Source: Brachionus manjavacas (taxonomy: Eukaryota; Rotifera; Eurotatoria; Ploima; Brachionidae). Taken from it: a stretch of DNA of 64,000 nt. Of this stretch, positions 35,250 to 58,187 are shown piece by piece; the first letter of the stretch is position 1; the number at the start of each line of letters is the position of its first letter. The notes beneath the pieces are model-generated. The model searched no databases. It had not been told where the DNA came from and saw only the letters and a program-made list of their open reading frames with translations. The position numbers and the translations under genes are program-made. The stretch is from NCBI GenBank assembly GCA_019054805.1, contig JAHQIY010000021.1, positions 434,001-498,000 on the forward strand, in the 5' to 3' direction.

Positions 35250-35957
35250 ATGCAAAACACTGTAAATAGTAGCTTATCGGTTATTTTAATATTTGGGTGG
35301 TTGTTAAAAAAACTACCAATAGTTTTTGTGCAAAAGTTTTTAACCTATGCTATTGGTTCTATGCATAAAAAGCACCCTAAAGTGTTTGCCAAATTAACCG
35401 ATGATAACCTAACCTTTACCATAGATGTAATAGATTTACCCTTTAATTTTTATCTGGATCCTTCTAAGCCCACTTTAATGGCTTATTATAAAAATCAAGA
35501 ACCTACCAGTAGTGCAAAAATAAAAGGCAAGTTAGTAGATTTACTTATGTTGTTTGAAGGCGAAAAAGACGGCGATGCTATGTTTTTTTCTAAAGAATTG
35601 GTTATAGAAGGCTCTACTGCGGCTATAGTACATTTACGTAACACTATAGACGGCGAGGATATGAATATAGTAGAAGACTTAGCTGGCGAAAAAGAAGGCT
35701 TAAAGGCTATAATTAAGCTTGCTCTTAAAACAGCGGTAACTAGCCATAATACTATTCAGCAGGTATTAGATAACATAACCAGTGCGGTTAATTACAACCC
35801 TAATCAAAATCATAAAGCTACGCAAGATAAACTAGACGATATTTACGAAGAAATAGATAATTTTAAGCAGTTTATTTACGAATATAAAAAACAGCAAATT
35901 AGAAGAAAGTCTGATTATCAACAAAAATCACAAGAACAACAACCCGAAGACCAATAA
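35250..35957 (+). CDS. ubiT: UbiT-like SCP2-domain protein
   Basis: UbiT is the lipid-binding accessory factor of oxygen-independent ubiquinone synthesis. The 235-residue protein has an SCP2 fold (about 40-125) with the diagnostic KGKLVDLLML, DGDAMFFSKELVIEG and HLRNTIDG motifs. A Lys/Gln-rich tail (about 180-235) extends beyond the usual end. Its TAA overlaps the ATG of ubiU by one base, which strongly supports the role. Confidence 0.85.
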   Translation: MQNTVNSSLSVILIFGWLLKKLPIVFVQKFLTYAIGSMHKKHPKVFAKLTDDNLTFTIDVIDLPFNFYLDPSKPTLMAYYKNQEPTSSAKIKGKLVDLLMLFEGEKDGDAMFFSKELVIEGSTAAIVHLRNTIDGEDMNIVEDLAGEKEGLKAIIKLALKTAVTSHNTIQQVLDNITSAVNYNPNQNHKATQDKLDDIYEEIDNFKQFIYEYKKQQIRRKSDYQQKSQEQQPEDQ

Positions 35958-36970
35958 TGGAGAATACCATGGATACAGTAAGCGAAAAAAGATTAGAGTT
36001 GCTTTGCCCCGCAGGAACCCTAGGTGCATTAAAAACTGCAGTATTAGCCGGAGCCGACAGCATATATTGTGGTTTTAAAAACGAAACTAACGCCCGTAAT
36101 TTTCCGGGGTTAAACTTTACTAAAGAAGAACTAAAAGAAGGTGTTGAGTTTGCTAAGCAACACGGCACAAAAGTTTTAGTAGCAATTAATACCTACCCTA
36201 CTGCAGGTAAAACCGAAATTTGGCACCAAGCGGTAGACGATGCGGCCGAATGTGGTGCCTATGCGGTTATTGTGGCAGATATTGGCTTGTTAGAGTATGC
36301 GTATAAAAATCAACCTAATTTGCGTAGGCATTTATCGGTACAGGCAACAGCTAGTAGTATAGAAGCTATTAATTATTTTGTAGATACCTACAAAGTAAGC
36401 CGTGTGGTATTGCCAAGGGTTTTAACCTTAAAGCAAATTAAAGAGTATAAAGAAAAAACCAACGTAGAGTTAGAAGTATTTGTATACGGTGGCTTGTGTG
36501 TAATGGCAGAAGGTAAGTGTTCGTTGTCTTCGTATGTTACAGGGCAATCGCCTAACAAAAATGGGGTTTGTTCGCCTGCAGAATTTGTAGAGTACGAAGA
36601 CAAAGGCAACAAGCTACTTAGCAAACTAAACGGTAGCGTTATTAACAAATTTAGTAAAAGCGAGTCTCCGGGGTATCCTACTATTTGTAAAGGTAGATTT
36701 GAAGCCGAGGGAGATTTATCTTACTTGTTTGAAGAACCAAGCAGTTTAAGTATTACCAATATGTTGCCAGATTTATTAGAAATTGGCGTAACTGCTTTAA
36801 AAATAGAAGGCAGACAGCGTGGTAAATCTTACGTAGAAAATGTTATTAAAACTTTTAGGGGTGCTATAGATAGAGTGCATAAAAACCAAGCTTACGATAC
36901 TGCGGCCTTGGCGGCTTTATCTGAAGGTAATAGCAATACCCAAGGTGCTTACAATAAAAAGTGGATGTAG
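35957..36970 (+). CDS. ubiU: UbiU, U32-family [4Fe-4S] hydroxylase subunit
   Basis: UbiU works with UbiV to hydroxylate the ubiquinone ring without O2. The 337-residue protein has ELLCPAGTLGALKTAV at the N-terminus and four conserved cysteines in YGGLCVMAEGKCSLS, NGVCSPAEF and PTICKGRF, as expected for the iron-sulfur site. ADSIYCGF and LKIEGRQRGK are also family motifs. It is coupled to ubiT (TAATG); ubiV lies about 8 kb away across the glycan island. Confidence 0.92.
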   Translation: MENTMDTVSEKRLELLCPAGTLGALKTAVLAGADSIYCGFKNETNARNFPGLNFTKEELKEGVEFAKQHGTKVLVAINTYPTAGKTEIWHQAVDDAAECGAYAVIVADIGLLEYAYKNQPNLRRHLSVQATASSIEAINYFVDTYKVSRVVLPRVLTLKQIKEYKEKTNVELEVFVYGGLCVMAEGKCSLSSYVTGQSPNKNGVCSPAEFVEYEDKGNKLLSKLNGSVINKFSKSESPGYPTICKGRFEAEGDLSYLFEEPSSLSITNMLPDLLEIGVTALKIEGRQRGKSYVENVIKTFRGAIDRVHKNQAYDTAALAALSEGNSNTQGAYNKKWM

Positions 36971-37017
36971 TTGTTGTAACGCTTTAATAAATAATAGCAA
37001 TAATTAATAAATATAAT

Positions 37018-37064
37018 AATAAAGGTTAGTACGTATTTTTATAAATACTATTAACCTTTATTTT
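37018..37064 (+). terminator. strong terminator after ubiU
   Basis: AATAAAGGTTA (37018-37028) pairs perfectly with TAACCTTTATT (37052-37062), and the stem continues inward through GTATTT/AAATAC with one mismatch to a TTAT loop. T-rich sequence follows. Confidence 0.75.
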
Positions 37065-37091
37065 ATTGTAAATTACAAAGGAGTAAATAAA

Positions 37092-38027
37092 ATGAAAATA
37101 GAATATACAACGCAAGCACAAACTATAGCTAAATACTTACAAAACAATGCAAATAAAGAATTTACCGCCAGAGAATTAGCAGAATGGTTGGTGGAAACCT
37201 ACCCAGAAATAGAGGCCAAGCGCAATAATCCAAACCGAGATTTATCTGGCAATAAATTAACAATCCAAATAGCAAGAGAGTTTAATCGTATGCCTGTTAT
37301 AGAGAAGTTAATAAAAAATTACGATATTTCTATAACCACAGAAAGACCAAGAAAATTTTATTATAAATTAACAGAACCAGAAAAAAAGCAAACAGACGCA
37401 GAAAGTAAAGCAGAAAAAGATTTATATCCGTTATTGTCTAAGTTTATAATATTAAAAGGTAATGATGTGTACACCAAACGCATTAATGAACAAAAATCAA
37501 ATAAATCTAATGGTAAGGGTTATAATAAATGGTTACACCCAGATATTGTTGGTATGCAACCTTTGTTTACAAATATAGAAAACGACGAAGTAAAAAAATG
37601 TATAAGTAACTACAGTATGCAAAATAAATTTAGTTTATGGTCGTTTGAAGTAAAAAAAGATTTAAATCAAAGCAACTTAAGAGAAAGTTTTTTTCAAACC
37701 GTTAGTAATTCTTCTTGGGCTAATAATGCCTATTTAGTTACGGGATCTAAACTTACACACAATATTATGGGCGACTTACGTATATTATGCAATTTACACG
37801 GTATTGGCGTAATTGAATTAAATACCGAAGATTATGTTGAAAGTGAAATTGTTATTGAATGCAAAAGCAAAAAAACTGTAGATTGGAACTCTATAAATAG
37901 ACTAGCAGAAGAAAATCCAGATTTTAAAAAATATGTTGAGTTAATAAATAACTATTGCCATAATAACGAAATTATTGAGCAACCTAAGGGTAAGGGTTGG
38001 GACGAATACCCTCTAGAAGAAGATTAA
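37092..38027 (+). CDS. HrgA/COG2958-like protein, HTH plus PD-(D/E)XK-like nuclease
   Basis: The 311-residue protein begins with a winged-helix-like segment (about 5-100; TAREL AEWLV type helices). A domain resembling HrgA of Helicobacter follows, with HPDIVGM and SLWSFEVKKDL; the Asp and the E-x-K would form a PD-(D/E)XK site. Related genes often accompany restriction-modification systems, but no methyltransferase is nearby. A GGAG ribosome-binding site precedes the ATG. It ends inside the coaX relic (convergent, stops overlapping). The role is probably DNA defence; this is inference. Confidence 0.65.
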   Translation: MKIEYTTQAQTIAKYLQNNANKEFTARELAEWLVETYPEIEAKRNNPNRDLSGNKLTIQIAREFNRMPVIEKLIKNYDISITTERPRKFYYKLTEPEKKQTDAESKAEKDLYPLLSKFIILKGNDVYTKRINEQKSNKSNGKGYNKWLHPDIVGMQPLFTNIENDEVKKCISNYSMQNKFSLWSFEVKKDLNQSNLRESFFQTVSNSSWANNAYLVTGSKLTHNIMGDLRILCNLHGIGVIELNTEDYVESEIVIECKSKKTVDWNSINRLAEENPDFKKYVELINNYCHNNEIIEQPKGKGWDEYPLEED

Positions 38028-38211
38028 AGAGCCCCATGCAAGTGCCACATAGCTAAAAAAATTATGTTTTGGTTTAGCTGTACTGTTGCTGGTTGCAGTT
38101 GGTTATTATATAAGTGTAATTTAGGTAAGTGTTGGTGTATTAACGGGCTTAGCCCTCCGGTTATAATTACTTGCTGTATATTGGGCGTTTGCTGTAGTGC
38201 TTGTTGTAATA
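38024..38211 (-). pseudogene. 3' relic of coaX
   Basis: This reverse-strand stretch is the last 60 or so codons of coaX, ending HLHGAL then TAA, where the intact gene ends HLHGAG then TAG. It has no start and stops matching coaX at 38211. It differs from the intact copy at 4 of 181 positions. The relic marks one junction of the glycan island and is too short to be functional. Confidence 0.9.
38031..38211 (-). repeat. 181-bp direct repeat flanking the glycan island, left copy
   Basis: It aligns without gaps to 44303-44483 with 4 mismatches (about 98% identity). Both copies are in the same orientation and consist of coaX 3' coding sequence. Confidence 0.95.
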
Positions 38212-38237
38212 TAAAAAATATTACTTATGCAAGGTAA

Positions 38238-38290
38238 CAACATTAATAGCTTGTATTATTATAACTTATAATTACAAGCTATTAATGTTG
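38238..38290 (-). terminator. 18-bp perfect inverted repeat at the left end of the island
   Basis: CAACATTAATAGCTTGTA (38238-38255) pairs perfectly with TACAAGCTATTAATGTTG (38273-38290) across a 17-base loop. It covers the stop of the WavE-like gene and would end that reverse transcript, though the T-run is weak. It stands 27 bases from the coaX repeat. Confidence 0.6.
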
Positions 38291-39337
38291 CAATTTGATA
38301 TTTTGAAGTTTTGCTTTCAATTTTTTTACAGTAGATTTTACTAAAAAAAAGGGCATAAAGGCTAGAAAAATAAGCAAAATTTTTATTATTAACTTTAATA
38401 TTAATTTGTGAATCTTTTTTTTTCTAAAAAGCCTTATTATGTTAGTAAGAATTCTTATACGTTTTAAACCAAATAAAAGTTTAGATAATAAAATATAATA
38501 AATATCTTTTATAGTAATTAAGGTGCTATTTATTTCATGCTCCATAAAACAGGAAGATTTTTCTTTTATAGCATTCCAAACCACATAATTTTCATAATAA
38601 GGCAAAATAATAGAATTTACAGATAAAAAAGGGTTTCTAGTTTTTATCCACCTATAGTCAATATTCCAAGAATTTACAACTATACAAAAATGCTTTATTG
38701 CAGAAATTGAGTCTTGATTCGTCTCTTTTATCTTCCATTCATTTTTTATAATAAAATTTCTAAACAAATACGATTCTGGAGTAATTGTAAGGGATGTTTT
38801 AAATTTTTCTTTGTGCTGTTGTATTTCATTAAATATATGTATATCTTCGGTTTCTTCCATTTCTTCGCAAGCATAGTAATCCGCAAGCACTTTTTTACTT
38901 CCGCATAAAAACATATCAGAAGGATGGTATAGTCTATCTTTTCTTGTGTAACAATTTGTTGTTAATATTTTATTTATGCTGTATAAGTTGTATTTGTTTA
39001 TATATTTTATTACCTTTAAAAAAGATATAGACTGATCATTTCTTAGCTTTATTACTATTTGGTCTTCGTTTATATAATCAAGAGCACTTTTAACAGATAT
39101 TATTTGCCTATTTATATTACAAAAACCAGGGTTTAACGTATCTTTTACCAAAACAAATGTAGCGTGTTTAATAAATTTATACTTCTCTACTTCTTTTTTA
39201 TATAACTCATAATCTGTAACATAGCAAGCTATTATTATTGGTATGCTGTACTTTAATGCAGATAAATTTTTATTAATTAACAGTAAGTTGTGGCCGCCTA
39301 AAGGACCATGTATTAAAAGTGTAATATTATTCTTCAT
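38282..39337 (-). CDS. WavE-like lipopolysaccharide synthesis protein
   Basis: The 351-residue protein resembles the WavE family of LPS/capsule glycosyltransferases. Visible features are IHGPLGG at the N-terminus, IKLRNDQSI (an R-x-D-type motif), HPSDMFLCG and TPESYLFRNF. The C-terminal part (about 290-351) is basic and hydrophobic, likely peripheral to the membrane. It overlaps the upstream GT4 gene by 11 bases, so the two are translationally coupled. The sugar transferred is unknown. Confidence 0.75.
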   Translation of the reverse strand: MKNNITLLIHGPLGGHNLLLINKNLSALKYSIPIIIACYVTDYELYKKEVEKYKFIKHATFVLVKDTLNPGFCNINRQIISVKSALDYINEDQIVIKLRNDQSISFLKVIKYINKYNLYSINKILTTNCYTRKDRLYHPSDMFLCGSKKVLADYYACEEMEETEDIHIFNEIQQHKEKFKTSLTITPESYLFRNFIIKNEWKIKETNQDSISAIKHFCIVVNSWNIDYRWIKTRNPFLSVNSIILPYYENYVVWNAIKEKSSCFMEHEINSTLITIKDIYYILLSKLLFGLKRIRILTNIIRLFRKKKIHKLILKLIIKILLIFLAFMPFFLVKSTVKKLKAKLQNIKLQH

Positions 39338-40526
39338 ACAGCAATCCTTGTAAAAATTTATCTTTTTTTTTCAATTTAAACCTAGGTAGTATAGAAACAT
39401 TAGGATCTATTAGCCTTGTAAGGCAATCTTTTTGCCTTTTAGCTTCAAGCAATCTTTCATCTTTAGTTAATGAATAAAAATATATTAAACTATTTAATAA
39501 AGAACCTTCTACAAACGGATCAAACAACATATTGTTGTTTTTAATATAATCGGAACAACCCGTGTACTTAGATGCAATTATAGGTACACCTAATAAACAA
39601 GCTTCTATCATAGCTAACGGTTGGTTTTCAAAAGTTGATGACATAACAGTTACATCTGTAATTTGTAAAAGAGCTTGTTTCTGATCTGCATTAAAAAAAT
39701 CAAATATTTTGATATCTTTTTGTTTGTTTTTAGGTATATTCTCTAATACTATAGTTTTATATGTTTTATTGATGCTATAAAGCAAATCAGATCCAGCCAT
39801 AAACAACTTAGAGTTAGAATTTGTTTTATTAAAAGCTAAAAAAGCATGTAAAAGACTAAGTTGCTTTTTCCGTCCCTCAAATCTAGAAATTAAAGAAATA
39901 TTGAAACTATCATTATATTTATCTAAATTAACAAATTCAGACATATCTTTTTTATTTATTTCTTCTGTGTAAGGGTTAGGAAAAACAAAAAAGTTTTTGT
40001 TTTTTATATTATACCTTTTTTTTACATAATTCATTAAAAATACCGACGGAGAAAACACATAATCAGAGTTCTCTATTTGTAACTTCTCTTCATACACAGA
40101 ATATTTTACAGAATCAGGAGCTTTATCAATAGATCTCTCATTACCCCACTCAACACACTCTTGGGTTCCTGTATGTAAATTGGTAACAAAAATCCAATTT
40201 GGTGAAATATTAAAAGATAAATCTAAACCTAAAGCAGAATAATCTGCACACTCAATATAAAAAGGATTAACCTTATAAGCAATCTCTGTAACTCTTTGTC
40301 TAGCTTTTGCAATATTAGATGGGTTTAACTTATGTATAGTTAATTTATTATCTTCTAGCAATGTACTTGTTTTATTATAGGCAAAGGTAGCTACATGCAC
40401 TTTATAATCAGTATTATTAAGCAAATAGCTAACTATTTGCTGTAAATAAACGGCAATGCCACCACACCCTTTAAAGTAACCAAACTCGTGGGCTACAAAT
40501 AATATTGCTTTATTTGTTGTATTCAT
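39327..40526 (-). CDS. GT4 family glycosyltransferase
   Basis: The 399-residue protein has two Rossmann-like halves. N-terminal GYFKGCGGIAVYLQQI is the acceptor-side glycine loop. C-terminal ISRFEGRKKQLSLL, FMAGSD and the donor site ENQPLAMIEACLLGVPIIAS are typical of GT4 enzymes such as WaaG-like transferases. It overlaps both neighbours (11 and 17 bases), which indicates one operon for surface-glycan assembly. Confidence 0.85.
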   Translation of the reverse strand: MNTTNKAILFVAHEFGYFKGCGGIAVYLQQIVSYLLNNTDYKVHVATFAYNKTSTLLEDNKLTIHKLNPSNIAKARQRVTEIAYKVNPFYIECADYSALGLDLSFNISPNWIFVTNLHTGTQECVEWGNERSIDKAPDSVKYSVYEEKLQIENSDYVFSPSVFLMNYVKKRYNIKNKNFFVFPNPYTEEINKKDMSEFVNLDKYNDSFNISLISRFEGRKKQLSLLHAFLAFNKTNSNSKLFMAGSDLLYSINKTYKTIVLENIPKNKQKDIKIFDFFNADQKQALLQITDVTVMSSTFENQPLAMIEACLLGVPIIASKYTGCSDYIKNNNMLFDPFVEGSLLNSLIYFYSLTKDERLLEAKRQKDCLTRLIDPNVSILPRFKLKKKDKFLQGLLYEE

Positions 40527-41715
40527 ATTTAAAAACTCTATTTACTGGCTCTTCTATTTTATAATATGTTTCGTTATCTATATCTGTACCATCTTGATTA
40601 ATATAATCTAATAAACCTAATGTTTTAAAAAATGCTATAAAATTATCATACTTAGCTGGGTAGTTTTTGTTAAAAGTTGAATAATCTAAGTTATAAAACA
40701 TAGAAAAAGGATCAGGAAATCCTTTTTTTGATGTTTTATTTGGTATCTCAAAAAACTCAGACATCTCTCTAGTTCTAGAATCAAAGGAATCAACAAGAGC
40801 AGGGACGCCTGCTAGTATTGATAAAATATTGCCATGAATTCTGCAACCAAAAGAAAAATGATAATTATTTTGCTTTATATCATTATACCAATTTAAAAAA
40901 TCAGGGTACAATTTTACCCTTTTCTCCACGTGCATCTTCATAAAAAACTCACTCCTATCTCCTAAATACTGAGCCTCCTTCCAAGTTAGATCGTTTGGTT
41001 TATAAAGCAATCTATAAAATTCGTCTTGGCAAACAAAGATACTGTTTTTATATTTATCAAAATATTTTCTAAACCCTACATCGTTCCAAACTCTAAACCC
41101 ATTAAAAACAACCGTAAAGTTTCCCTCATCTACCTCTTTTTTCTTAACGCTTAAGTGTCTTCCTTTTACATACAACGAAGGACATCCTGTAGCTACTATA
41201 TGATTATCTTTAAAACCTAACTTTTGCAAAACATCTAAGGAAAAATGCCCTCTTAAACCCAAACCTCCACCGGTGTTTAATATTGCAGAAACATAGTCCG
41301 TAACAATATTACTAGCTTCTTTTGTTAAAAATTCAACCTTAAAATCAGAATTTTGCGCTCCTATGCCAATATCATAAACTGGTATTCTTAGCTTTTTAAT
41401 AACATTCAATCTATTCTGTAAATCACTAGCTCCAAATGAATTATTTATCACGTTTGCAGAGCTAATAATAATGCACTTATAAGTTTCATTAATTCTATCA
41501 ATCTCTTGATTAAATTCAACCTTACTTAAAACCTTAAAGAATTGAATAAGGGGTATATTATAAACTTCGTAAAAATCTTTCTTTAAAAAAGATTCTACCG
41601 AATACTCAAAAACCGCATTACCTGAATTACTACCTACACTATCCATAAAGCTATTATCTAGGGGGTGTACAACCTTGTGCTTTGGTTTTAAATTAACCAA
41701 CAATACCTTCTTCAT
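40510..41715 (-). CDS. polysaccharide pyruvyl transferase family protein
   Basis: The 401-residue protein matches the family fold: an N-terminal NFGN-like region (SVGSNSGNAVFEY), IGIGAQNSDF, LRGHFSLDVLQKLG and the strong signature FSFGCRIHGNILSILAGVPALV. Members add ketal pyruvate to sugars or act as GT-B transferases. It is first in the reverse operon and begins close to the central divergent promoter region. Confidence 0.82.
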   Translation of the reverse strand: MKKVLLVNLKPKHKVVHPLDNSFMDSVGSNSGNAVFEYSVESFLKKDFYEVYNIPLIQFFKVLSKVEFNQEIDRINETYKCIIISSANVINNSFGASDLQNRLNVIKKLRIPVYDIGIGAQNSDFKVEFLTKEASNIVTDYVSAILNTGGGLGLRGHFSLDVLQKLGFKDNHIVATGCPSLYVKGRHLSVKKKEVDEGNFTVVFNGFRVWNDVGFRKYFDKYKNSIFVCQDEFYRLLYKPNDLTWKEAQYLGDRSEFFMKMHVEKRVKLYPDFLNWYNDIKQNNYHFSFGCRIHGNILSILAGVPALVDSFDSRTREMSEFFEIPNKTSKKGFPDPFSMFYNLDYSTFNKNYPAKYDNFIAFFKTLGLLDYINQDGTDIDNETYYKIEEPVNRVFKYEYNK

Positions 41716-41778
41716 TTTACAACCATTATCAATAAATTAAATTTTTCTAGCATTACAACTTTTACAACAACCGCTTAG

Positions 41779-41792
41779 TTGTTAATTAACAA
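41779..41792. promoter_or_regulatory. 14-bp perfect palindrome in the divergent promoter region
   Basis: TTGTTAATTAACAA reads the same on both strands and lies midway between the two divergent operons of the island. It could be an operator, but AT-rich palindromes also arise by chance. Confidence 0.3.
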
Positions 41793-41842
41793 TTAATTTT
41801 ACACAAAAACAATAGCATATAAAAACTATTAATGCAATAAAA

Positions 41843-41880
41843 ACATAATTATTGCAAAACTGCAGTAATTATGTTATAAT
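41843..41880 (+). promoter_or_regulatory. promoter inside an inverted repeat, upstream of the cassette
   Basis: TTGCAA (41852-41857) and TATAAT (41875-41880) are 17 bases apart. They overlap a 14-bp inverted repeat (ACATAATTATTGCA with TGCAGTAATTATGT, 4-base loop, one wobble). The -35 box and spacer lie within the dyad, so binding of a dimeric regulator or cruciform formation would block the promoter. Confidence 0.65.
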
Positions 41881-41926
41881 AACAAAATAAGTTAGATTAA
41901 AGCAATAACTATATAAAGGAACAATA

Positions 41927-42679
41927 ATGCTAAATATTATTATACCAATGGCTGGCTTAGGAAGTAGATTTGTAAAAGAAAACTATAAGGTTATAAAGCC
42001 AATGATACCAGTTTTAGGCTTTCCTATGATACAAGTTGTGGTAAATAATTTAACACCAAGTCGCCCTCATAAATTTATCTTTATATGTCAAAACAAACAC
42101 ATAACAGAATATTCTCTAAAAGATAAACTTCCTATTTACGCACCTAATTGTGAAATTATAGGAACAGACGGGTTAACAGAGGGGCAGTTATGCTCTGTTT
42201 TAACATCTAGAGATTTGATTAATAACGATAACCCTATAATGATGGCAAATTCAGATCAATACATAGATACAAATATAGATGATTATTTAAACGAAATAGA
42301 TAGCAGGAAGTTAGATGGAATGATTATGACTATGCATTCGCAAGACCCTAAGTGGTCTTACGCTAAACTAGATAGCGATGAACATGTTGTTGAAACTGCT
42401 GAAAAGAAAGTAATATCTAGCCAAGCAACTGTAGGTATATATAACTTTACTAAAGGGTCTGAATTTGTTAAATATGCAGATCAATTAATTAAAGATAATA
42501 TTAGGGTGAACAATGAATTTTATACTTGCCCTGTTTACAATTACGCAATAAAAGATGGTTTAAAGGTTGGAGTATACAGTATAGGTGAAGAGTACAACGG
42601 TTTATATGGTCTTGGTATTCCTAAAGATTTAGAGTTGTTTGTTAATCACCCCGTATCTAAAAAAATTATGAGCAAATAA
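41927..42679 (+). CDS. sugar/polyol-phosphate nucleotidyltransferase
   Basis: The 250-residue protein starts MLNIIIPMAGLGSRF, the nucleotide-binding G-x-G-x-R loop, and continues KPMIPVLGFPMIQVVV with the catalytic lysine. MMANSDQYIDT carries the metal-binding aspartate region. It should activate a phosphorylated sugar or small alcohol with CTP or another NTP. An AAAGGA site precedes the ATG. It begins a four-gene cassette with gaps of 2 bases or overlaps. Confidence 0.85.
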   Translation: MLNIIIPMAGLGSRFVKENYKVIKPMIPVLGFPMIQVVVNNLTPSRPHKFIFICQNKHITEYSLKDKLPIYAPNCEIIGTDGLTEGQLCSVLTSRDLINNDNPIMMANSDQYIDTNIDDYLNEIDSRKLDGMIMTMHSQDPKWSYAKLDSDEHVVETAEKKVISSQATVGIYNFTKGSEFVKYADQLIKDNIRVNNEFYTCPVYNYAIKDGLKVGVYSIGEEYNGLYGLGIPKDLELFVNHPVSKKIMSK

Positions 42680-42681
42680 AA

Positions 42682-43335
42682 ATGTTAATTTTATCTCATA
42701 GGGGTTTGTGGCTTAAAGATAATGAAAAAAATTCGTTAGATGCTTTTTATAAATCTTTTAACTTAAATTTAGGTATAGAGCTAGACGTTAGGGACTGCAA
42801 TGGAGAAGTTGTTGTTTCTCATGACATGTCTGTTATTAGCAAAAACAATATTTTATTTGAAGATGTATTAAAATTAAGCAATATTAATAATAATTTGTTG
42901 GCTATTAATATTAAAGCAGACGGATTGTACGATAAATTAGATTTTTTACTTAAAAAATACAATCACACTAATTATTTTGTTTTTGACATGTCAATTCCAG
43001 AAATGTATAAATATATAAAAAAAGAACTTAAAACTTTTACCCATATTAGTGATATTTGCCACCAACCTATATTAATAAAAGAATCTAACGGTATTTGGTT
43101 AGATTCTTTTATTTCAGACTGGTTCAATAATAAGTTAATAGACGATATGCTAAACTTACATCCAGATAAAAAAATTTGCATCGTTTCTTCTGAGCTACAC
43201 AAAAGAGATTATATGAAGCAGTGGGGGTTAATTAAACAAACTAACAATATAAACTCTAATCGTCTTATTTTATGTACAGATTTACCAACACAAGCTATGA
43301 GGTTTTTTTATGACAATAAAAGCTATACTATTTGA
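42682..43335 (+). CDS. glycerophosphodiester phosphodiesterase-like protein
   Basis: The 217-residue protein has the GDPD start LILSHRGLW with the catalytic His-Arg, then GIELDVRDCNGEVVVSHD with the metal-binding Glu-x-Asp and His. It is shorter than typical GDPDs (about 240-250). It ends in TGA, the only such stop I saw among all genes of this window, and overlaps the next gene by 26 bases. In this context it may release or transfer a phosphodiester-linked group of a glycan. Confidence 0.8.
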   Translation: MLILSHRGLWLKDNEKNSLDAFYKSFNLNLGIELDVRDCNGEVVVSHDMSVISKNNILFEDVLKLSNINNNLLAINIKADGLYDKLDFLLKKYNHTNYFVFDMSIPEMYKYIKKELKTFTHISDICHQPILIKESNGIWLDSFISDWFNNKLIDDMLNLHPDKKICIVSSELHKRDYMKQWGLIKQTNNINSNRLILCTDLPTQAMRFFYDNKSYTI

Positions 43336-43945
43336 TATGGATGGTGTTTTAATTGATGCTAAAGAATGGCACTATGAGTCTCTTAATAAATCTTTATCTT
43401 TTTTTAACTTTGCAACCATATCTAGAGAAGACCATGAAGGAAAGCTAGACGGCTTGCCTACATTAAAAAAGCTAGAATTTTTGTATAATGCTTACGGATC
43501 CCCTACTCCAAGCGATTATAATAAAGTTGAACAATTAAAGCAACAATATACTATGGAAATAGCAAAGCAATCTTGTAATCCTATTCCACTACAACAAGAA
43601 ACGCTATCTAACCTAAAAAGCGAAAGATATAAAATGGCTTGTTGCTCTAATTCAATTAAAGAAAGCGTAGATCTATTTTTAAATTTAGCCGATATACATA
43701 AGTATTTTGAATTCTTTTTATCTAATCAAGATGTTTCAAAAGCAAAACCTGATCCTGAAATATACCTTTTGGCTATGAAAAAATTAAATGTTTTACCGTC
43801 AGAGGTTGTTATTTGTGAAGATAATTTTAATGGGATATGTGCAGCCAAAGCTTCTGGTGCTCATGTTTTAGAAATAAAAACAACAAAAGATGTAAATTAC
43901 AATAATATATCTAATTTTATAAAGGAAGTAAATGGTAAAAGTTAG
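43310..43945 (+). CDS. HAD superfamily phosphatase
   Basis: The 211-residue protein has DMDGVLIDAKEWH (catalytic Asp pair), CCSNSIKE (motif II), SKAKPDPEIY (motif III Lys) and VICEDNFNG (motif IV), with a small helical cap (about 15-80). These are the features of HAD subfamily IA phosphatases. It should dephosphorylate a sugar or small metabolite for the cassette. It overlaps both neighbours. Confidence 0.88.
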   Translation: MTIKAILFDMDGVLIDAKEWHYESLNKSLSFFNFATISREDHEGKLDGLPTLKKLEFLYNAYGSPTPSDYNKVEQLKQQYTMEIAKQSCNPIPLQQETLSNLKSERYKMACCSNSIKESVDLFLNLADIHKYFEFFLSNQDVSKAKPDPEIYLLAMKKLNVLPSEVVICEDNFNGICAAKASGAHVLEIKTTKDVNYNNISNFIKEVNGKS

Positions 43946-44255
43946 TAATTTAAAAGATATGACAAAAGGCTGGTTAATAGGTGATTTCTATCCTTCTTTA
44001 TTTAAAACTGATTTGTTTGAGGTTGCAGTAAAACATTACAAAAAAGGCGACTCTGAAGATCAACATATGCATAAAATAGCTACAGAATATACCGTTATAG
44101 TTTCTGGTGAAGTATTAATGAATGGAATAAAGTATGATGCTGATTCTATTATTGAAATAAAACCAGAAGAGGTTACAAATTTTATTGCCCTTGAAGATAC
44201 AACCACTGTTGTTGTTAAAATTCCTTGTGTAATAGGTGACAAATTTATAGTATAG
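43932..44255 (+). CDS. cupin-fold protein
   Basis: The 107-residue protein is a small single cupin: HYKKGDSEDQHMHKIATEY gives the first motif (His residues and Glu), and the second motif, around TTTVVVKIP, is weak. Such proteins bind a metal and act as sugar epimerase or isomerase, or as sensors. It overlaps the HAD gene by 14 bases and is the last gene of the island, ending about 50 bases before the coaX repeat. Confidence 0.72.
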   Translation: MVKVSNLKDMTKGWLIGDFYPSLFKTDLFEVAVKHYKKGDSEDQHMHKIATEYTVIVSGEVLMNGIKYDADSIIEIKPEEVTNFIALEDTTTVVVKIPCVIGDKFIV

Positions 44256-44295
44256 CAAATATTGCTTACATATAAAATCTGAATTATAAATACAT

Positions 44296-45111
44296 CTACC
44301 CCGCCCCATGCAAGTGCCACATAGCTAAAAAAATTATGTTTTGGTTTAGCTGTACTGTTGCTGGTTGCAGTTGGTTGTTATATAAGTGTAGTTTAGGTAA
44401 GTGTTGGTGTATTAACGGGCTTAGCCCTCCGGTTATAATTACTTGCTGTATATTTGGCCTTTGCTGTAGTGCTTGTTGTAATAAATTATGCACTAAACCA
44501 ACATAACCAAAAAAGGTTCCGCCGTGTATTGCCTGCTGTGTAGTGTTGCCTAATACACTATCTACTGCCTGTGGGCTTAGCTGGGGTAGTAAATCTGTTT
44601 GTTTATGCAACGCATTATACATAGTTTGCAAACCTGTAGTAATGGCTACTCCGCTTAATAAACCAGTATGCGTGGTGTGTTGTAATACCGTTGCGGTGCC
44701 ACAATCTAATATTAAACTATTTTGTTGCAATACCCTAATACTGTAAAAACTTTTTAATAAAATATCTAGCCCAACTTGGCTTAAAGGCGTTTGCTTAGTG
44801 CTTACATACGGTGCAAAATTATTACTATGTAAAAAATAGTAATTTAAATTTAATTGCTGTAATGCTTGCTGTAATAAAATATTTTTACTAGGCACCACAC
44901 TACAAACAATAACTACTATGTTTGTAGATTGTACTTGTGTGTTTTGTAAAAAATCTGTAAAAAAACTAATTAAGGCGTTTTGCAAATTATTTACATTAAT
45001 CTGCTTATAATTAATGTAATTTTTGTGTAAAATTTTAGTAGATTTATTACTAAACAATACTGCTTTTAAGGTGGAGTTTCCTAAGTCTGTTGCTATAAAA
45101 TGTGTTGGCAT
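44296..45111 (-). CDS. coaX: type III pantothenate kinase
   Basis: CoaX phosphorylates pantothenate in the first step of CoA synthesis. The 271-residue protein has the N-terminal ATDLGNSTLK phosphate loop, ILDCGTATVLQ and GVAITTGLQTM. The family GADR-type motif reads QVGLDILL, so it is divergent, but the ASKHA layout is clear. Gln and Leu content is high. Its last 60 codons are duplicated at 38024-38211 on the other side of the island. It is transcribed away from ubiV. Confidence 0.82.
   Translation of the reverse strand: MPTHFIATDLGNSTLKAVLFSNKSTKILHKNYINYKQINVNNLQNALISFFTDFLQNTQVQSTNIVVIVCSVVPSKNILLQQALQQLNLNYYFLHSNNFAPYVSTKQTPLSQVGLDILLKSFYSIRVLQQNSLILDCGTATVLQHTTHTGLLSGVAITTGLQTMYNALHKQTDLLPQLSPQAVDSVLGNTTQQAIHGGTFFGYVGLVHNLLQQALQQRPNIQQVIITGGLSPLIHQHLPKLHLYNNQLQPATVQLNQNIIFLAMWHLHGAG
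44303..44483 (-). repeat. 181-bp direct repeat flanking the glycan island, right copy
   Basis: This is the copy within intact coaX; see 38031-38211. Differences are two A/G changes near the middle and two changes near the 5' end of the coaX sense. Confidence 0.95.
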
Positions 45112-45240
45112 AATATTACTTTATTTACTATAATAATAAGTATAGCATACAATTAAATTGTATAAAGTTAACAAAAACTATGTTAATATATTACTAATAT
45201 ACTATATTTTAAATTAACAATAAAAAAGGTTGTTTTAAAT

Positions 45241-46158
45241 ATGCAAACAAATAATTACAAAATTACCCTTGGCCCGTGTCTATTTAACTGGAAAGTAAAC
45301 GATTGGAGAGACTTTTATTTTAAAATGGCAGATAACCCCAACATAGACGAAGTTTACATAGGCGAGGTAGTTTGCATTAAGCGGTTTCCTTTTTTTGAAG
45401 TTGCCTTTAAAGAAGTTATAGAACGCTTAAAAGCTAGCGGTAAAACCGTTAATTTATCTTCTTTTTCTTTATTATTAAGCAAATTAGAAGTAAACTCTAA
45501 CAAAAAAATGCTACAAATGTTTGAAGACCTACCAATGGAGGCCAACGATGTTGGTATACTACCACTGCTACACAACAAACCGCACATTGTAGGCCCTACC
45601 ATTAACGTTTATAACGAATACACCGCAAAAACTTTAGCAGATAAAGGGGCTTACCGAATCTGTTTTCCGTACGAAATAGAAAAAAGTGCATTAGAAGTAA
45701 TTAGTAAAGCAATTCCAAACACACAAAAAGAAGTTTTTGCTTTTGGTAGAATGCCGTTAGCTATTGCCGCCAGATGCTACCATGCTAGAATTCATAACAC
45801 CACTAAAGAAGATTGTAGATACGTTTGCGAAAAAGACTACAACGCCAAACCAATACAAACTACCACCGGCGAAGACTTTTTAGCAGTAAACGGCACACAA
45901 ACAATGTCTTTTAGTTTTAACAATTTAATTGTAGAAGCACAACAATTACTTGATATTGGTATTAATATTTTTAGAATATCGCCACATTACATGGATATGA
46001 ATAGCGTTATTAATTTGTTTAAAGCCGTGCTAGATAAAAAAATGGATGGTAACGAAGCCTTAGCTAAAATGCAACCCTTACTGCCTAGCGGTAGTAAATT
46101 TGCCAACGGCTTTTTTTATGGTGGTGCCGGCAGAGATATGATGCGCAGTACAGAGTAA
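45241..46158 (+). CDS. ubiV: UbiV, U32-family [4Fe-4S] hydroxylase subunit
   Basis: UbiV pairs with UbiU for O2-independent ring hydroxylation in ubiquinone synthesis. The 305-residue protein starts with a TLGPCLFNW-type N-terminus (cysteine 1), and AARCYHARI with KEDCRYVCEKDY supplies three further cysteines of the iron-sulfur site. FRISPHYMDM is another family motif. Its natural partners ubiT-ubiU lie about 8 kb upstream, separated by the HrgA-like gene, the island and coaX. Confidence 0.9.
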   Translation: MQTNNYKITLGPCLFNWKVNDWRDFYFKMADNPNIDEVYIGEVVCIKRFPFFEVAFKEVIERLKASGKTVNLSSFSLLLSKLEVNSNKKMLQMFEDLPMEANDVGILPLLHNKPHIVGPTINVYNEYTAKTLADKGAYRICFPYEIEKSALEVISKAIPNTQKEVFAFGRMPLAIAARCYHARIHNTTKEDCRYVCEKDYNAKPIQTTTGEDFLAVNGTQTMSFSFNNLIVEAQQLLDIGINIFRISPHYMDMNSVINLFKAVLDKKMDGNEALAKMQPLLPSGSKFANGFFYGGAGRDMMRSTE

Positions 46159-46809: not shown

Positions 46810-48354
46810 TTAAAATTTACGCTTAAAACTATTATTAGCGTTATTGCTACGTTTAGGTTTGCTAAAGCCAGAACTATTGCGGTTTGCATTAGGTTTTGCA
46901 TTGGGTTTTGCACTACTGGTAGCATTAGATTTTGCGTTATTAGTAGCATTAGATTTTGCAACCGGCTTAAATGCATTTGCACTGCTTTTGGTAGCTGGTT
47001 TTTTACTAAAGCCAGATTTAACAAAATTAGCTATAGATTTACCAAACTTACTTTTTTTAACAAAGCCGGTGTTGTTAAAATCTACATCGTTAGCAACTAA
47101 ACTTTCTTGATTTTGCAACGGATTAAACTGCTTTTTACCGCTACGTGCCGTATTGCTTTTGCTGGTTTGCGTTGAATTGTAAGATTTAGCATTACCATTT
47201 TTACCTGCACTATTGCTAAATTTACTAGCTTTAGGTTTTTTTGGTTTAGCAGATTTATTAGCTTTTGGGTTTTCGTTAGGGTTTAATAAGTAATAAATAG
47301 CTTTCCATTTATCTTTTTCTTGGTTAGAAACAAAAGAAACCGCTTCGCCACTTTGCCCTGCTCTGCCGGTTCTACCTATACGGTGAATGTAATCTTCTGG
47401 GCATTGGGGTAAATCGTAATTAATTACGTGTTGCACATGCGGAATATCCAACCCTCTGGCGGCAATATCTGTGGCTATTAATACGTTAAATTTTTTGGCT
47501 CTAAAGTCTGCAGTTATCTTTTCACGCTTATTGTGGCGTAAGTCTCCGTGTAAAGCATCGCTTTTAAAATCTAAAGTTTTAAGTTTTTTAGCCATGCGTT
47601 CTGCGTTGTATTTAGTTTTTACAAATACTATAACGCTTCCTTCTCTAGAATTTAACTGTACTAATAATTGGTTATGCTTGTCGGCTTCGGCAATGTTAAT
47701 AATTTCTTGCTTAATTTTTTCTACCGGAGTAGAAGAATCGCCAATAAAGATTTTTTCTGGGTTGTTCATATAATTAGCAGATAAATCTACAATATTTTGC
47801 GGAAAAGTTGCAGAAAACAATAAAGTTTGTTTGCCTTGCGGAATATGTTTAATAATTTCGTTAATTTGAATAGAAAAACCCATATCTAGCATACGGTCGG
47901 TTTCATCTAACACTAAAAACTTAACTGCACTTAAATTTAGGCTGTTACGTTTTAAATGGTCGTTAATTCTACCAGGGGTGCCAACAATAATGTTTGGTTT
48001 TCTTTGTAAATCGTTAAGTTGCTTGCCTATGCTTTCGCCACCAATTAACAAAGCCACTTTACAAGGGCTACCTTTACTTAGTAAAGATGTAAAGGTTTTT
48101 AGTACTTGGGTTGCTAGCTCTCTAGTTGGTGTAATAATAATAGCGGTTTGCTTAGGGTTGTTGTGCAAAGCAGAAACAATAGGTATAGCAAAAGCACCAG
48201 TTTTGCCTGTGCCGGTTTTAGAAGACACTAAAAGGTCTTTACCGTTTAAAACTAACGGAATAGCCTGTTGTTGCACTTGGGTTGGGTTGGTAAAATTTAA
48301 ATTGTTTAAAGCCGTTAAAACGGTTGGGTGTAAGTTAAAAGAGTTAAATGTCAT
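46810..48354 (-). CDS. DEAD-box RNA helicase, RhlE-like
   Basis: The 514-residue ATP-dependent RNA helicase has all core motifs: Q motif (PTQVQQQAIP), I (SKTGTGKT), Ia (PTRELATQV), II (VLDETDRMLDMGF, so DETD instead of DEAD), III (SATFP), V (ATDIAARGLD) and VI (HRIGRTGRAG). From about residue 370 a Lys/Ser/Asn-rich tail with degenerate NAKSNAT-type repeats likely binds RNA. It probably helps ribosome assembly or mRNA decay at low temperature. Confidence 0.92.
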   Translation of the reverse strand: MTFNSFNLHPTVLTALNNLNFTNPTQVQQQAIPLVLNGKDLLVSSKTGTGKTGAFAIPIVSALHNNPKQTAIIITPTRELATQVLKTFTSLLSKGSPCKVALLIGGESIGKQLNDLQRKPNIIVGTPGRINDHLKRNSLNLSAVKFLVLDETDRMLDMGFSIQINEIIKHIPQGKQTLLFSATFPQNIVDLSANYMNNPEKIFIGDSSTPVEKIKQEIINIAEADKHNQLLVQLNSREGSVIVFVKTKYNAERMAKKLKTLDFKSDALHGDLRHNKREKITADFRAKKFNVLIATDIAARGLDIPHVQHVINYDLPQCPEDYIHRIGRTGRAGQSGEAVSFVSNQEKDKWKAIYYLLNPNENPKANKSAKPKKPKASKFSNSAGKNGNAKSYNSTQTSKSNTARSGKKQFNPLQNQESLVANDVDFNNTGFVKKSKFGKSIANFVKSGFSKKPATKSSANAFKPVAKSNATNNAKSNATSSAKPNAKPNANRNSSGFSKPKRSNNANNSFKRKF

Positions 48355-54007: not shown

Positions 54008-54490
54008 ATGAAAAAAAGTTTAATTTTATTTGCCGCAGGTTTATTAGCAACTGCTGGCGTGGCTAATGCAGCAACCTTTACTGCTAATGCTAGTGCTAAT
54101 TTAATAACCGGTTTAAGCCTTAACGAAGATACTGCTTTAAACTTTGGTAAAATTTCTATTGCTTCTGCAGAAAGTGTTATTACGTTAACTAATGCTGGGG
54201 TATCTGTAACTTCTGGCGATGCTACACACCATGGCGAAAGTGCAATGGGTGCTTTTACATTAGTTGGAGATGGCAACCATGATTTAGGTGCGGTAACTGT
54301 AGCTGCTAGTGGTACACTAACCGATGGTACTAATACATTAAATGCTACTTATGCTTTAGACGGCACTGCCCCTACTGTTTTAGACGGTGCAGGTGAAGCT
54401 ACTTTTAACGTAATTGGTACTTTAACCATACCTGCTGGTGCTACTGCTGGTGCTTACGCTGGTACTTACGAAATAACTTACAGCTATTAA
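54008..54490 (+). CDS. DUF4402-type pilin subunit, likely major
   Basis: The 160-residue protein has a signal peptide (cut near VANA, residue 21). A hydrophobic, alternating N-terminal segment (TFTANASANLITGLSL) suits the donor strand of chaperone-usher subunits. A one-domain Ig-like body (NFGKI, GAFTLVGDG, TLTIPAGATAGAYAGTY) ends in ITYSY. It contains no cysteine. It is first in the operon and is followed by a terminator-like hairpin, so it is probably the most abundant subunit. The Ala/Gly-rich composition also suits a structural subunit. Confidence 0.85.
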   Translation: MKKSLILFAAGLLATAGVANAATFTANASANLITGLSLNEDTALNFGKISIASAESVITLTNAGVSVTSGDATHHGESAMGAFTLVGDGNHDLGAVTVAASGTLTDGTNTLNATYALDGTAPTVLDGAGEATFNVIGTLTIPAGATAGAYAGTYEITYSY

Positions 54491-54526
54491 TATAAGCTAT
54501 AAAGTAAATTTATAAAGTATAAAATT

Positions 54527-54577
54527 AGGTGGTTTGTATAAAATTGTAATAATTTAAACACAAATCACCTTTTTTTA
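54527..54577 (+). terminator. intercistronic terminator-like hairpin, copy 1
   Basis: AGGTGGTTTGT (54527-54537) pairs with ACAAATCACCT (54560-54570; one G-T wobble) and is followed by seven T residues. It lies only about 20 bases before the ribosome-binding site of the next pilin gene and is nearly repeated at 55139-55188. Confidence 0.8.
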
Positions 54578-54597
54578 TAAAATAAGGATAGTTTACA

Positions 54598-55101
54598 ATG
54601 AAACAAAAGATAATTTTATTTACCGCAGGCTTGTTAGCCACTGCAGGTATAATTAATGCAGAAACAACCAACGGTACTGCAGGTGCTAACATAATAGTAG
54701 ATTTAACTATAGAAGAAAGGTATATATTAAGCTTTGGTAGAATTATACCAGGCACACAAGAAAGTGTTGTTCGCTTTTCTCCAATTCATGCTGGCCTAGA
54801 AGTATTATCTGGCGATGCTACAATACCTAGCGATTCTACATTAAATAATGGCTATAACCTAGGTGGTTTTACTTTAACCGGAGAACCAAACCAATCTTTA
54901 AGTACAGTAAGTGTTTCTAGTACTGGTACATTAACCGATGGTACTAATACACTAAATATTGCTTATACTGGGCGTTCTATACCTACAGCGTTAAACCAAT
55001 TTGGTAAAGCAACTTTTGCCGTAGGTGCTTCGTTAACCATACCCGCCAATGCTACTGCTGGTGCTTATACTGGCACTTACGAAGTAAGTTACAGCTATTA
55101 A
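54598..55101 (+). CDS. DUF4402-type pilin subunit
   Basis: The 167-residue protein has a signal peptide ending near IINA and a donor-like segment (TNGTAGANIIVDLTI). Its Ig-like body carries the same landmarks as its neighbours (SFGRIIPG, GGFTLTGEPN, LTIPANATAGAYTGTY) and ends in VSYSY. Signal and 5' region closely match the first and third genes, which indicates recent duplication. No cysteine. It is likely a minor or alternative subunit. Confidence 0.83.
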   Translation: MKQKIILFTAGLLATAGIINAETTNGTAGANIIVDLTIEERYILSFGRIIPGTQESVVRFSPIHAGLEVLSGDATIPSDSTLNNGYNLGGFTLTGEPNQSLSTVSVSSTGTLTDGTNTLNIAYTGRSIPTALNQFGKATFAVGASLTIPANATAGAYTGTYEVSYSY

Positions 55102-55138
55102 TATATGCTATAAGTTTACATTTATAAAGTAAAAAACT

Positions 55139-55188
55139 AGGTGGTTTGTATAAAATGGTAATAATTTAACCACAAATCACCTTTTTTT
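55139..55188 (+). terminator. intercistronic terminator-like hairpin, copy 2
   Basis: The same stem as copy 1 (AGGTGGTTTGT with ACAAATCACCT) and T-run. The flanking sequence up to the ribosome-binding site AAGGATAG and start codon is nearly identical to copy 1, so gene and spacer were duplicated together. Confidence 0.8.
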
Positions 55189-55209
55189 ATAAAATAAGGA
55201 TAGTTTACA

Positions 55210-55695
55210 ATGAAAAAAAATATAATTTTATTTATTACTGGTTTGTTAGTAACTGCCAGTATAACTGGGGCGGCCAACACCAACGGTACATCTGGGGCAA
55301 CCTTATCTGCAGAGTTAACCATAGAAGAAACAACTTCTTTAAGTTTTGGTAAAGTAGAAAAAGGAACAACAGACAGTGTTATTAGCCTAAATGCTGATGG
55401 TAGTGCAACAGTTAGTTCTGGTGATTTTTTGCATCATGGTGGGCATTCTAAAGGTATTTTTAAGTTAATGGGAGATGCTAACCGTACAGTAAGCACTATA
55501 ACTGTAGATACAAATGGAACATTAACAGATGGATCTAATACTTTAAGCGCAACCTATTCTATAGATGGATTGCCCCCAACTACACTAGATAGTACAGGAG
55601 AGTTAGTTTTTAGTGTAATTGGTACTATAAGTGTACCTGCTTCTACGCTTAATAGCAAATATACAGGTACCTATAACATTACTTATAGCTATTAA
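55210..55695 (+). CDS. DUF4402-type pilin subunit
   Basis: The 161-residue protein has a signal peptide (about 1-20), donor-like segment NGTSGATLSAELTI, and body motifs LSFGKVEKGT, GIFKLMGDAN and ISVPASTLNSKYTGTY, ending in ITYSY. A SVISLNADGSATVSSGD stretch matches the fourth paralogue. No cysteine. It is followed after 21 bases by the next pilin gene without a hairpin, so those two share a transcript. Confidence 0.83.
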   Translation: MKKNIILFITGLLVTASITGAANTNGTSGATLSAELTIEETTSLSFGKVEKGTTDSVISLNADGSATVSSGDFLHHGGHSKGIFKLMGDANRTVSTITVDTNGTLTDGSNTLSATYSIDGLPPTTLDSTGELVFSVIGTISVPASTLNSKYTGTYNITYSY

Positions 55696-55716
55696 CAAAA
55701 TAAGGATAATTTAACA

Positions 55717-56223
55717 ATGAAAAATTTTATAACTTTGCTACTATTAAGTACATTATCTAGTATTAGCTTTATTAATGCTAATACTATTACAGGATCTAAC
55801 AAAGAAATTTACCCAGAAATTAAAATGGGTTTGTATAATGTAATATCTGTAACCGAAAATACTGCTTTAAATTTTGGTAAAATACTTACTGGATCTACAG
55901 AAAGCGTGGTATCTTTAGCAGCAGATGGTACTGCTAACGTAACATCTGGCAATGCGGTACACCAAGGCCAGCAAGCTATTGGTGCGTTTACTTTAACCGG
56001 AGACGCCAACCAACCATTTAGTAACTTAAGAGTTGTAGCCACAGGTACTTTAACCAATGGCACTACTACATTAAACACAACGTACTCTATACAAGGCACT
56101 CCACCAACTACATTAGATGCAACGGGAAACGCTACTTTTAATGTTATAGGTACCCTTACTATACCTGCTAACACCCAAGGCGGTAATTATACAGGCACTT
56201 ATGATATTACTTTTTATTACTAA
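55717..56223 (+). CDS. DUF4402-type pilin subunit
   Basis: The 168-residue protein has a signal peptide ending near INANT, a longer pre-domain segment (about 22-44) and body motifs NFGKILTGSTESVVSL, GAFTLTGDAN and LTIPANTQGGNYTGTY, with the end IT-FYY replacing ITYSY. An AAGGATAA site precedes it. Body identity to the first pilin is high. No cysteine. Confidence 0.83.
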   Translation: MKNFITLLLLSTLSSISFINANTITGSNKEIYPEIKMGLYNVISVTENTALNFGKILTGSTESVVSLAADGTANVTSGNAVHQGQQAIGAFTLTGDANQPFSNLRVVATGTLTNGTTTLNTTYSIQGTPPTTLDATGNATFNVIGTLTIPANTQGGNYTGTYDITFYY

Positions 56224-56250
56224 AAATAAAATAAATTAGGATGTTTTAAA

Positions 56251-56739
56251 ATGAAAAATTTTATAATTTTAAAAATTGTTACTGTAATTACATTATTAAA
56301 TATAGCAACAATAAACGCAGAAACAAAAACTGCAAATGCAGATATTGAAGTTTTTAACACGCTTAAAGTAACACAAAGTAGACCAATATTGTTTGGTACT
56401 ATAACTCCGGGTAGTGTTGAAAGCAAGGCTGTAACCAACCCAGACCCAGGAAGCTTTGGTACATCTTTAGAATACGGCGATGCTATAGTTATAAGTCAAG
56501 GCTTTGGAGGGGCTGTTATATTTGAAGGAGACCCTGGTATATTAATTACAGTTTCTTCGCCCAATAGCGCCACCATAACTAATGGAATAGATACATTAAA
56601 CGTAAGTATAGATGGAGACACTAGCGTAACCACAAAAATTGGATATGCTTTTGCTTATTTTAATGCTTCGGTTATAATACCAGCTAATGCATCGTTAGGT
56701 GCTTATTACGGTACTTTTTTGGTAAATTACTCTTACTAA
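56251..56739 (+). CDS. divergent DUF4402-type pilin subunit
   Basis: The 162-residue protein has a signal peptide ending near INAET. Landmarks are weaker but present: LFGTITPGSVES, an interrupted GGAVIFEGDPG strand and VIIPANASLGAYYGTF, ending in VNYSY. No cysteine. It closes the first operon and is followed by a strong terminator. It may be a minor subunit or terminator of the pilus. Confidence 0.75.
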   Translation: MKNFIILKIVTVITLLNIATINAETKTANADIEVFNTLKVTQSRPILFGTITPGSVESKAVTNPDPGSFGTSLEYGDAIVISQGFGGAVIFEGDPGILITVSSPNSATITNGIDTLNVSIDGDTSVTTKIGYAFAYFNASVIIPANASLGAYYGTFLVNYSY

Positions 56740-56759
56740 ATTAAGCAACTAAACCATTA

Positions 56760-56799
56760 AAACAAGGTAAATTATTAAATTAGTTTACCTTGTTTTTTT
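56760..56799 (+). terminator. strong intrinsic terminator of the first pilin operon
   Basis: AAACAAGGTAAA (56760-56771) pairs perfectly with TTTACCTTGTTT (56784-56795), followed by a T-run, about 20 bases after the fifth pilin stop. Confidence 0.88.
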
Positions 56800-56978
56800 A
56801 AACTAAACTAACTAATTAAACCCATAGCGAATCTATTTTTTGTGTTTTTAAACAATATAACAACCAAAAAATTTATAAACCAACTATCTTTGCATTTTAA
56901 ATACATTATTGCAAAACAACATAAATCTACAAAAAACACTTTTTAATAGCTTAACAAAAATTTATTTTAAACTTACAG
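56800..56978. other. AT-rich intergenic region between pilin operons
   Basis: No coding frame is supported here. The stretch joins the terminator of the first pilin operon to the promoter of the second. Confidence 0.5.
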
Positions 56979-57007
56979 TTGATTTTGATTAACAAAGTAT
57001 GTATACT
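56979..57007 (+). promoter_or_regulatory. promoter of the second pilin unit
   Basis: TTGATT (56979-56984) and TATACT (57002-57007) are 17 bases apart. The -10 lies inside AAGTATGTATACT (56995-57007), which recurs exactly at 58951-58963 before the two-domain subunit gene. Confidence 0.65.
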
Positions 57008-57045
57008 TAAAAGTAATATTTAAAAATTAATTTTATTGTTGGCCA

Positions 57046-58107: not shown

Positions 58108-58124
58108 TTTAAATAAACTTTTGG

Positions 58125-58153: not shown

Positions 58154-58187
58154 TGCTTATAATTAAAAATTTTAAATAAACAAAATA

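Follow-up and report, generated by a model that had tools for sequence, protein, structure and literature searches.

A composite insertion with sugar genes and a duplicated coaX 3′-end between ubiU and ubiV on a bacterial contig of the Brachionus manjavacas assembly

On a bacterial contig of the Brachionus manjavacas assembly (GCA_019054805.1), seven genes of polysaccharide type lie between two copies of the 3′-end of coaX, one within a whole gene and the other a relic. The question raised by this locus is how the sugar genes came to lie there and whether they can leave again. The locus is part of a stretch of 64,000 nucleotides, called the window here, which corresponds to positions 434001-498000 of contig JAHQIY010000021.1 (C21; 1,221,242 bp; the assembly comprises 114 Mb in 61 contigs). 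An assembly of that size points to a eukaryote with bacteria included. An earlier note on this DNA had explained the arrangement by insertion through a single crossover in coaX. Comparison with related genomes showed that an insertion has split ubiU from ubiV at this position, and coaX itself appears to be a relocated gene that belongs to the inserted block.

The direct repeat and the coaX relic

A single direct-repeat family was present between 36000 and 46500 of the window. Its two copies, at 38031-38211 and 44303-44483, were 181 nt long with 98% identity and a start-to-start distance of 6272. A scripted count over the aligned copies gave 0 gaps and 4 mismatches (38105/44377, 38119/44391, 38183/44455 and 38187/44459), which bears out the gap-free 181-bp repeat of the earlier note; the end of the interval that it gave for the island (38024..44483) also stood, and its start, 38024, proved to lie 7 bp outside the repeat. 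The features concerned are as follows:

38031..38211, minus strand: coaX 3′-end relic, left repeat copy; 181 bp, 4 mismatches relative to coaX, frame open to the stop
44303..44483, minus strand: right repeat copy, within coaX; 181-bp match to the relic
44296..45111, minus strand: coaX, whole, 271 aa (Pan_kinase E 1.9e-31, residues 6-212 of 271; PDB 3djc E 1.8e-15)
38238..38290, no strand: 18-bp perfect inverted repeat near the broken end of the relic

The repeat, GC, codon and stem comparisons reported here covered 122 kb of the 1,221-kb C21. In BLAST at settings of ≥75% identity and ≥60 bp with the low-complexity filter on, the pair had an E value of 4.7e-84 within these 122 kb, which rules out a chance repeat. 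Two other pairs of at least 60 bp were found, both tandem or array repeats. Across the whole 114-Mb assembly a DNA search found just these two places and a search with the CoaX protein found the same two. As the copies differ at 4 places and sit in a 1.22-Mb contig, an assembly error is unlikely to be their source.

From about codon 211 onwards the left copy keeps an open coaX frame, so that it holds the last ~60 codons and lacks the first ~210, and an intact 271-aa open reading frame (ORF) lies on the right, as the earlier note had described. The relic ends in HLHGAL* and coaX in HLHGAG*. The stop codon of the relic overlaps that of hrgA on the opposite strand, the two genes standing tail to tail. 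Three of the differences between relic and coaX are synonymous and the fourth is an R/T change at codon 218; at least three synonymous differences among four has a P of 0.04 if all were neutral. This hints, weakly, that both copies evolved as working alleles before they met, the hint being a weak one because changes in a working copy would also be mostly synonymous. The window CoaX reads G-x-D-I, like three family members, at the place where the solved type III pantothenate kinases 3djc and 2h3g read GADR; it thus lacks the G-x-D-R motif.

The inverted repeat begins 27 bp past the broken end of the relic. It was the longest stem in the 122 kb (stems ≥13, loops 3-40; -26.5 kcal/mol, z -7.0), has no T-run, and no other copy of its arm was found in the window at ≤2 mismatches. 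A terminator that lacks a T-run and a fragile site are both possible readings, and we place no weight on the inverted repeat.

The contig and the genomes compared

ObgE from the window scored highest to an alphaproteobacterium when the alpha, beta and gamma classes were compared with one genome each. Against 385 alphaproteobacterial genomes it gave 194 matches past E 1e-105, the best being G097 (59%). The family comparison set consisted of four genomes (G097, G388, G389 and G207), whose UbiU proteins were 68-73% identical to that of the window. G207 is a single contig of 1,340,442 bp, and two stretches of it that were examined had 28 and 30% GC. PMC9992710 gives for Ca. Hepatincola of Armadillidium vulgare (HepAv) a complete genome of 1.34 Mbp with 29.53% GC, and PMC11724238 describes the Hepatincolaceae as extracellular in the gut of ecdysozoans, with ~1.3 Mb, 30% GC and the capacity for homologous recombination. 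We infer that C21 comes from the small, AT-rich genome of an alphaproteobacterial symbiont of Hepatincolaceae type, which is probably host-bound.

In a five-gene tree bearing on the grouping of the window and G388, the nodes within the family had support of 40, 47 and 63, too weak for placement. A UbiU scan of genome contigs gave 36 loci with a top identity of ~53%, none of them close kin. Five of 348 candidates for bacterial 16S in the assembly were scored; the best lay on C45 and none of the five on C21, so C21 has no 16S placement. The C45 16S stands next to a gene that we take to be yrdA-like, which hints at a second bacterium in the assembly, perhaps a gammaproteobacterium.

An insertion between ubiU and ubiV

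The block and its flanking genes are:

35957..36970, plus strand: ubiU, left flank (NCBIfam UbiU E 9.5e-149, above cut-off)
36971..45240, no strand: derived 8.27-kb block between ubiU and ubiV, from ubiU-ubiV adjacency in kin
45241..46158, plus strand: ubiV, right flank (57-65% identity to ubiV of the four family genomes)

The order engB-yidC-pbp-ubiT-ubiU is common to the window and all four family genomes. In three of the four (G097, G389 and G207) ubiV follows directly, and in G097 and G207 the two genes overlap. Outside the family, ubiU and ubiV were adjacent in 35 of 36 loci, the odd one being a distant U32 protein in an Opitutus bin (29%); these loci are not independent, since 29 of the 36 are from Vibrio or Vibrionaceae. 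From the adjacency in family and outside loci we conclude that the pair was ancestrally adjacent and that 36971-45240 is derived, so that a widely conserved quinone gene pair has been broken by insertion.

In the fourth family genome, G388, at positions 9900-13798 of the stretch examined, the gene after ubiU encodes 1255 aa including an Eco57I methylase domain, and ubiV is on a different contig. The gene preceding ubiV there is presumably of DEAD-box type, and a similar gene lies at 46810-48354, one gene past the window ubiV. The pair is thus split in two of five genomes, the window and G388, each with a restriction-type gene adjoining ubiU.

Relocation of coaX

All three family genomes with a coaX match (G097, G388 and G207) carry the gene with rnj behind it and genes of nuoN and birA type in front; these neighbour names are our presumption. 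G389 gave no coaX match at E 1e-10. The rnj of C21 is at 540729-542348, ~61 kb from coaX, and the gene in front of it is of thyX type instead of birA-coaX. Searches with the birA proteins of G388 and G097, which covered the window and three further C21 stretches, gave no match. The window CoaX was 33-39% identical to those of G097, G388 and G207, and coaX looks like the family's own gene, relocated.

Because ubiU and ubiV are adjacent in kin and coaX lies between birA and rnj there, we take coaX to be a newcomer between ubiU and ubiV. Judged from gene order its relocation is well supported, and coaX is part of the derived block together with hrgA. The insertion claimed by the earlier note therefore holds in so far as kin lack the segment at this position; coaX, its supposed target, is not ancestral at the site, and besides a single crossover at least one other route fits. 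The uninterrupted hrgA-coaX-ubiV order that was to support that claim was not seen in any genome compared.

Genes of the block and their possible sources

Eight further genes lie in the block, seven of them between the repeat copies, in agreement with the earlier note:

37092..38027, plus strand: hrgA-like gene (25 plasmid records match, several of them under the annotation HrgA protein; no Pfam above cut-off)
38282..39337, minus strand: 351-aa protein of no family (no Pfam, NCBIfam or PADLOC match; one PHROG at E 0.055)
39327..40526, minus strand: GT4-type glycosyltransferase (Glycos_transf_1 E 2.4e-16)
40510..41715, minus strand: polysaccharide pyruvyl-transferase (PS_pyruv_trans E 9.1e-13)
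41927..42679, plus strand: sugar nucleotidyltransferase, NTP-transferase (NTP_transferase E 5.5e-10; phrog_3980 E 6.4e-60)
42682..43335, plus strand: GDPD-like protein (PDB 1o1z, glycerophosphodiester phosphodiesterase, E 0.00026, 49 residues; phrog_35688 E 1.7e-37)
43310..43945, plus strand: HAD-type phosphatase (HAD_2 E 1.5e-34)
43932..44255, plus strand: 107-aa protein (phrog_24762, function not known, E 1.2e-37)

The sugar genes form two groups that diverge from 41716-41926, with the pyruvyl-transferase, GT4 and 351-aa genes running leftward and the NTP-transferase, GDPD-like, HAD and 107-aa genes running rightward. We take the 107-aa protein to be cupin-like. Going by the protein families, modification of a surface glycan is the probable role of the sugar genes. 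As the earlier note had stated, neither an integrase nor a transposase was found in the ten proteins encoded by ubiU, coaX and the genes between them (a scan that left out smaller overlapping ORFs), and no tRNA lies within the block, the nearest being at 32729 and 48771.

GC content and codon use were compared with 100 raw ORFs of ≥150 aa from the 122 kb of C21 (mean GC 0.327, standard deviation 0.031). All seven sugar genes were under the reference mean, five of them by more than one standard deviation; hrgA (0.299) and coaX (0.339) were both within one. By codon use, the size-matched ORFs that deviated as far or farther numbered 3/58 for the GT4 gene, 2/58 for the pyruvyl-transferase and 2/57 for the HAD gene, which places these in the outer 3-5%. 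The 351-aa (7/60), GDPD-like (8/59) and 107-aa (2/12) genes were less deviant.

The best of the 25 plasmid matches to HrgA was 41%, on a Ca. Megaera polyxenophila plasmid. Among the four family genomes, which were searched for hrgA and the pyruvyl-transferase, G207 alone had a match to either: hrgA (41%) at a different place, and the pyruvyl-transferase (38%), around which no further sugar genes were recognised in 9 kb.

The NTP-transferase matched 19 phage records, of which 18 are Synechococcus phages, with identity up to 47%. The 107-aa protein matched three phage records and adjoins an NTP-transferase in one. Two cyanophage sugar cassettes resemble the block: OR003938 has a related NTP-transferase with HAD matches nearby, and in MT408532 a related NTP-transferase adjoins a relative of the 107-aa protein. 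They differ from it in that identities are 36-47%, the GDPD-like protein had no tblastn match in phages despite its PHROG profile match, and no phage genes were recognised in the block. Cassettes of this sort are no proof that the sugar genes came from phages. The 351-aa protein had no tblastn match in phages or plasmids. In viral contigs, 15 stretches matched a pattern for NTP-transferase relatives and none encodes one, and a 34-base coaX pattern was found 0 times.

Origin of the arrangement

On balance we favour nested recombination between alleles that each had coaX between ubiU and ubiV, anchored by homology on one side or both, as the source of a composite 8.27-kb insertion built in more than one step. 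In this reading, coaX would have left the nuoN-birA-coaX-rnj order, an origin suggested because kin show that order and coaX is missing at the C21 rnj, and would have landed between ubiU and ubiV. There hrgA and the AT-rich sugar genes would have joined it, the sugar genes coming to lie between relic and coaX. In the recombination of the two coaX-bearing alleles, homology in coaX or in ubiU would have served as the anchor, with a non-homologous joint at 38211/38212; homology between the copies stops at 38211. By one route, a circle carrying the sugar genes and a coaX 3′-end would have entered by one crossover. By the other, a linear hrgA-coaX fragment would have recombined homologously on the side of ubiU, its opposite end being joined illegitimately. 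The two routes are indistinguishable and we weigh them about equally; we infer both the allele exchange and its route. In favour of this origin stand the adjacency of ubiU and ubiV in kin, the place of coaX there, the low GC of the sugar genes beside hrgA and coaX, the mostly synonymous differences between the copies, the relic frame that stays open as far as a stop overlapping that of hrgA, the plasmid relatives of hrgA, and RecA, encoded at C21:930488.

Several points weigh against this origin. No allele without the sugar genes or without hrgA was found in the genomes compared, so the order of events was not seen. The family genomes are distant (CoaX 33-39%), and many events may therefore separate them from the genome of the window. 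Four differences between the copies are few, and the P of 0.04 assumes that none arose in the working copy. No further duplicated gene ends were found in the 122 kb of C21. The codon use of the NTP-transferase gene is ordinary (26/68 size-matched ORFs at least as deviant), and the codon measure also flagged a pilin-type gene that is probably resident (1/35), so it is not specific for foreign DNA.

A known parallel, which the linear route resembles, is homology-facilitated illegitimate recombination with orphan 3′ genes in the immunity arrays of the type VI secretion system of V. cholerae. In that model, as PMC5361080 presents it, new genes lie beside a retained piece of the older allele, with a one-sided homology anchor and no recombinase, and the same may hold here; the paper calls such events quite rare experimentally. 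The block differs from it in that duplication has affected a housekeeping gene, which is still whole; the locus has also newly arrived at its site, and no recipient allele was found. No description of this locus was found in the Hepatincola/Hepatincolaceae literature in the one open library searched, and nothing pertinent was found in the literature on hrgA with repeats, islands with partial duplications or RecA switching.

The circular route is a special case of the favoured recombination between alleles: the circle, with the sugar genes and the coaX 3′-end, would have integrated into coaX through a single homologous crossover after hrgA-coaX had come to lie there. Taken by itself we regard it as less likely than not. 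It agrees with the direct order of the repeat, with the whole coaX on one side and a relic with its own stop by hrgA on the other, with sugar genes that are AT-rich beside hrgA and coaX that are not, and with an encoded RecA. It requires, however, a circle in which the sugar genes were already attached to the coaX 3′-end. No allele, plasmid or circle of that kind was found, and nothing distinguishes this route from a linear one-sided event.

Slightly less probable still is a duplication within the genome, in which the 181-bp piece of coaX would have been copied or left behind during a rearrangement of coaX and its new neighbours with no donor allele. That coaX has moved relative to kin implies that breaks occurred here, and 27 bp separate the 18-bp perfect inverted repeat from the point at which the relic is broken. 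On the other side, the relic has its stop ≤2 codons from the break by hrgA, something not required of a random paste; three of the four differences are synonymous, and the 122 kb hold no similar duplicate.

Some integrative islands insert at a gene's 3′-end and rebuild the gene in doing so, and the block shares their geometry: a whole gene at one end, a displaced 3′-end at the other that repeats it directly (here 181 bp of coaX) and cargo between. A former island of this kind, with the coaX 3′-end as attachment site and an integrase since lost, is nevertheless improbable. No integrase was found among the ten proteins, the repeat is long, and coaX is not ancestral at the site, being elsewhere in all three family genomes with a match. 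A composite transposon and a tRNA-targeted island were rejected, no transposase having been matched and no tRNA being at the site.

Loss of the sugar genes

Exchange between the two copies would excise 6,272 bp, with coaX still whole afterwards. With the repeats present and RecA encoded, such a loss of the sugar genes is possible. The earlier note had gone further and proposed an on/off surface-glycan switch, in which RecA exchange would remove and restore the sugar genes in the population. The 181-bp repeats at 98%, the encoded RecA and the whole coaX that loss would leave all fit a switch, but neither a second allele nor a linked regulatory feature was found, and we consider a working switch very improbable.

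It would be nearly as speculative to regard the gap behind ubiU as a recurrent landing site of the family, where a restriction-linked gene arrives first (hrgA here, the Eco57I-type gene in G388) and cargo follows. RecA could then remove the sugar cargo by way of the coaX repeat, and strains in one host would differ in surface glycan. If the sugar genes are removable in populations, they would be a simple source of variation in the symbiont surface. We take the block as ordinary genome plasticity, mildly interesting for a reduced symbiont: a small alphaproteobacterium, probably host-bound, acquires and rearranges sugar and defence-type genes by what seems to be ordinary recombination.

Other observations

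At 54008-63489 of the window, eight or nine small secreted-type proteins are encoded in a row, followed by genes that are presumably chaperone-like and usher-like, and the set looks like a chaperone-usher fimbria. Tardigradibacter is described in PMC11724238 as devoid of flagella or pili. A low-complexity protein with repeated Lys-rich and Asp/Glu-rich stretches is encoded at 6333-7211. Shortly past rnj in G207, positions 12881-14976 of the stretch examined contain two tandem, near-identical 333-aa genes, which we take to be glycosyltransferase-like.

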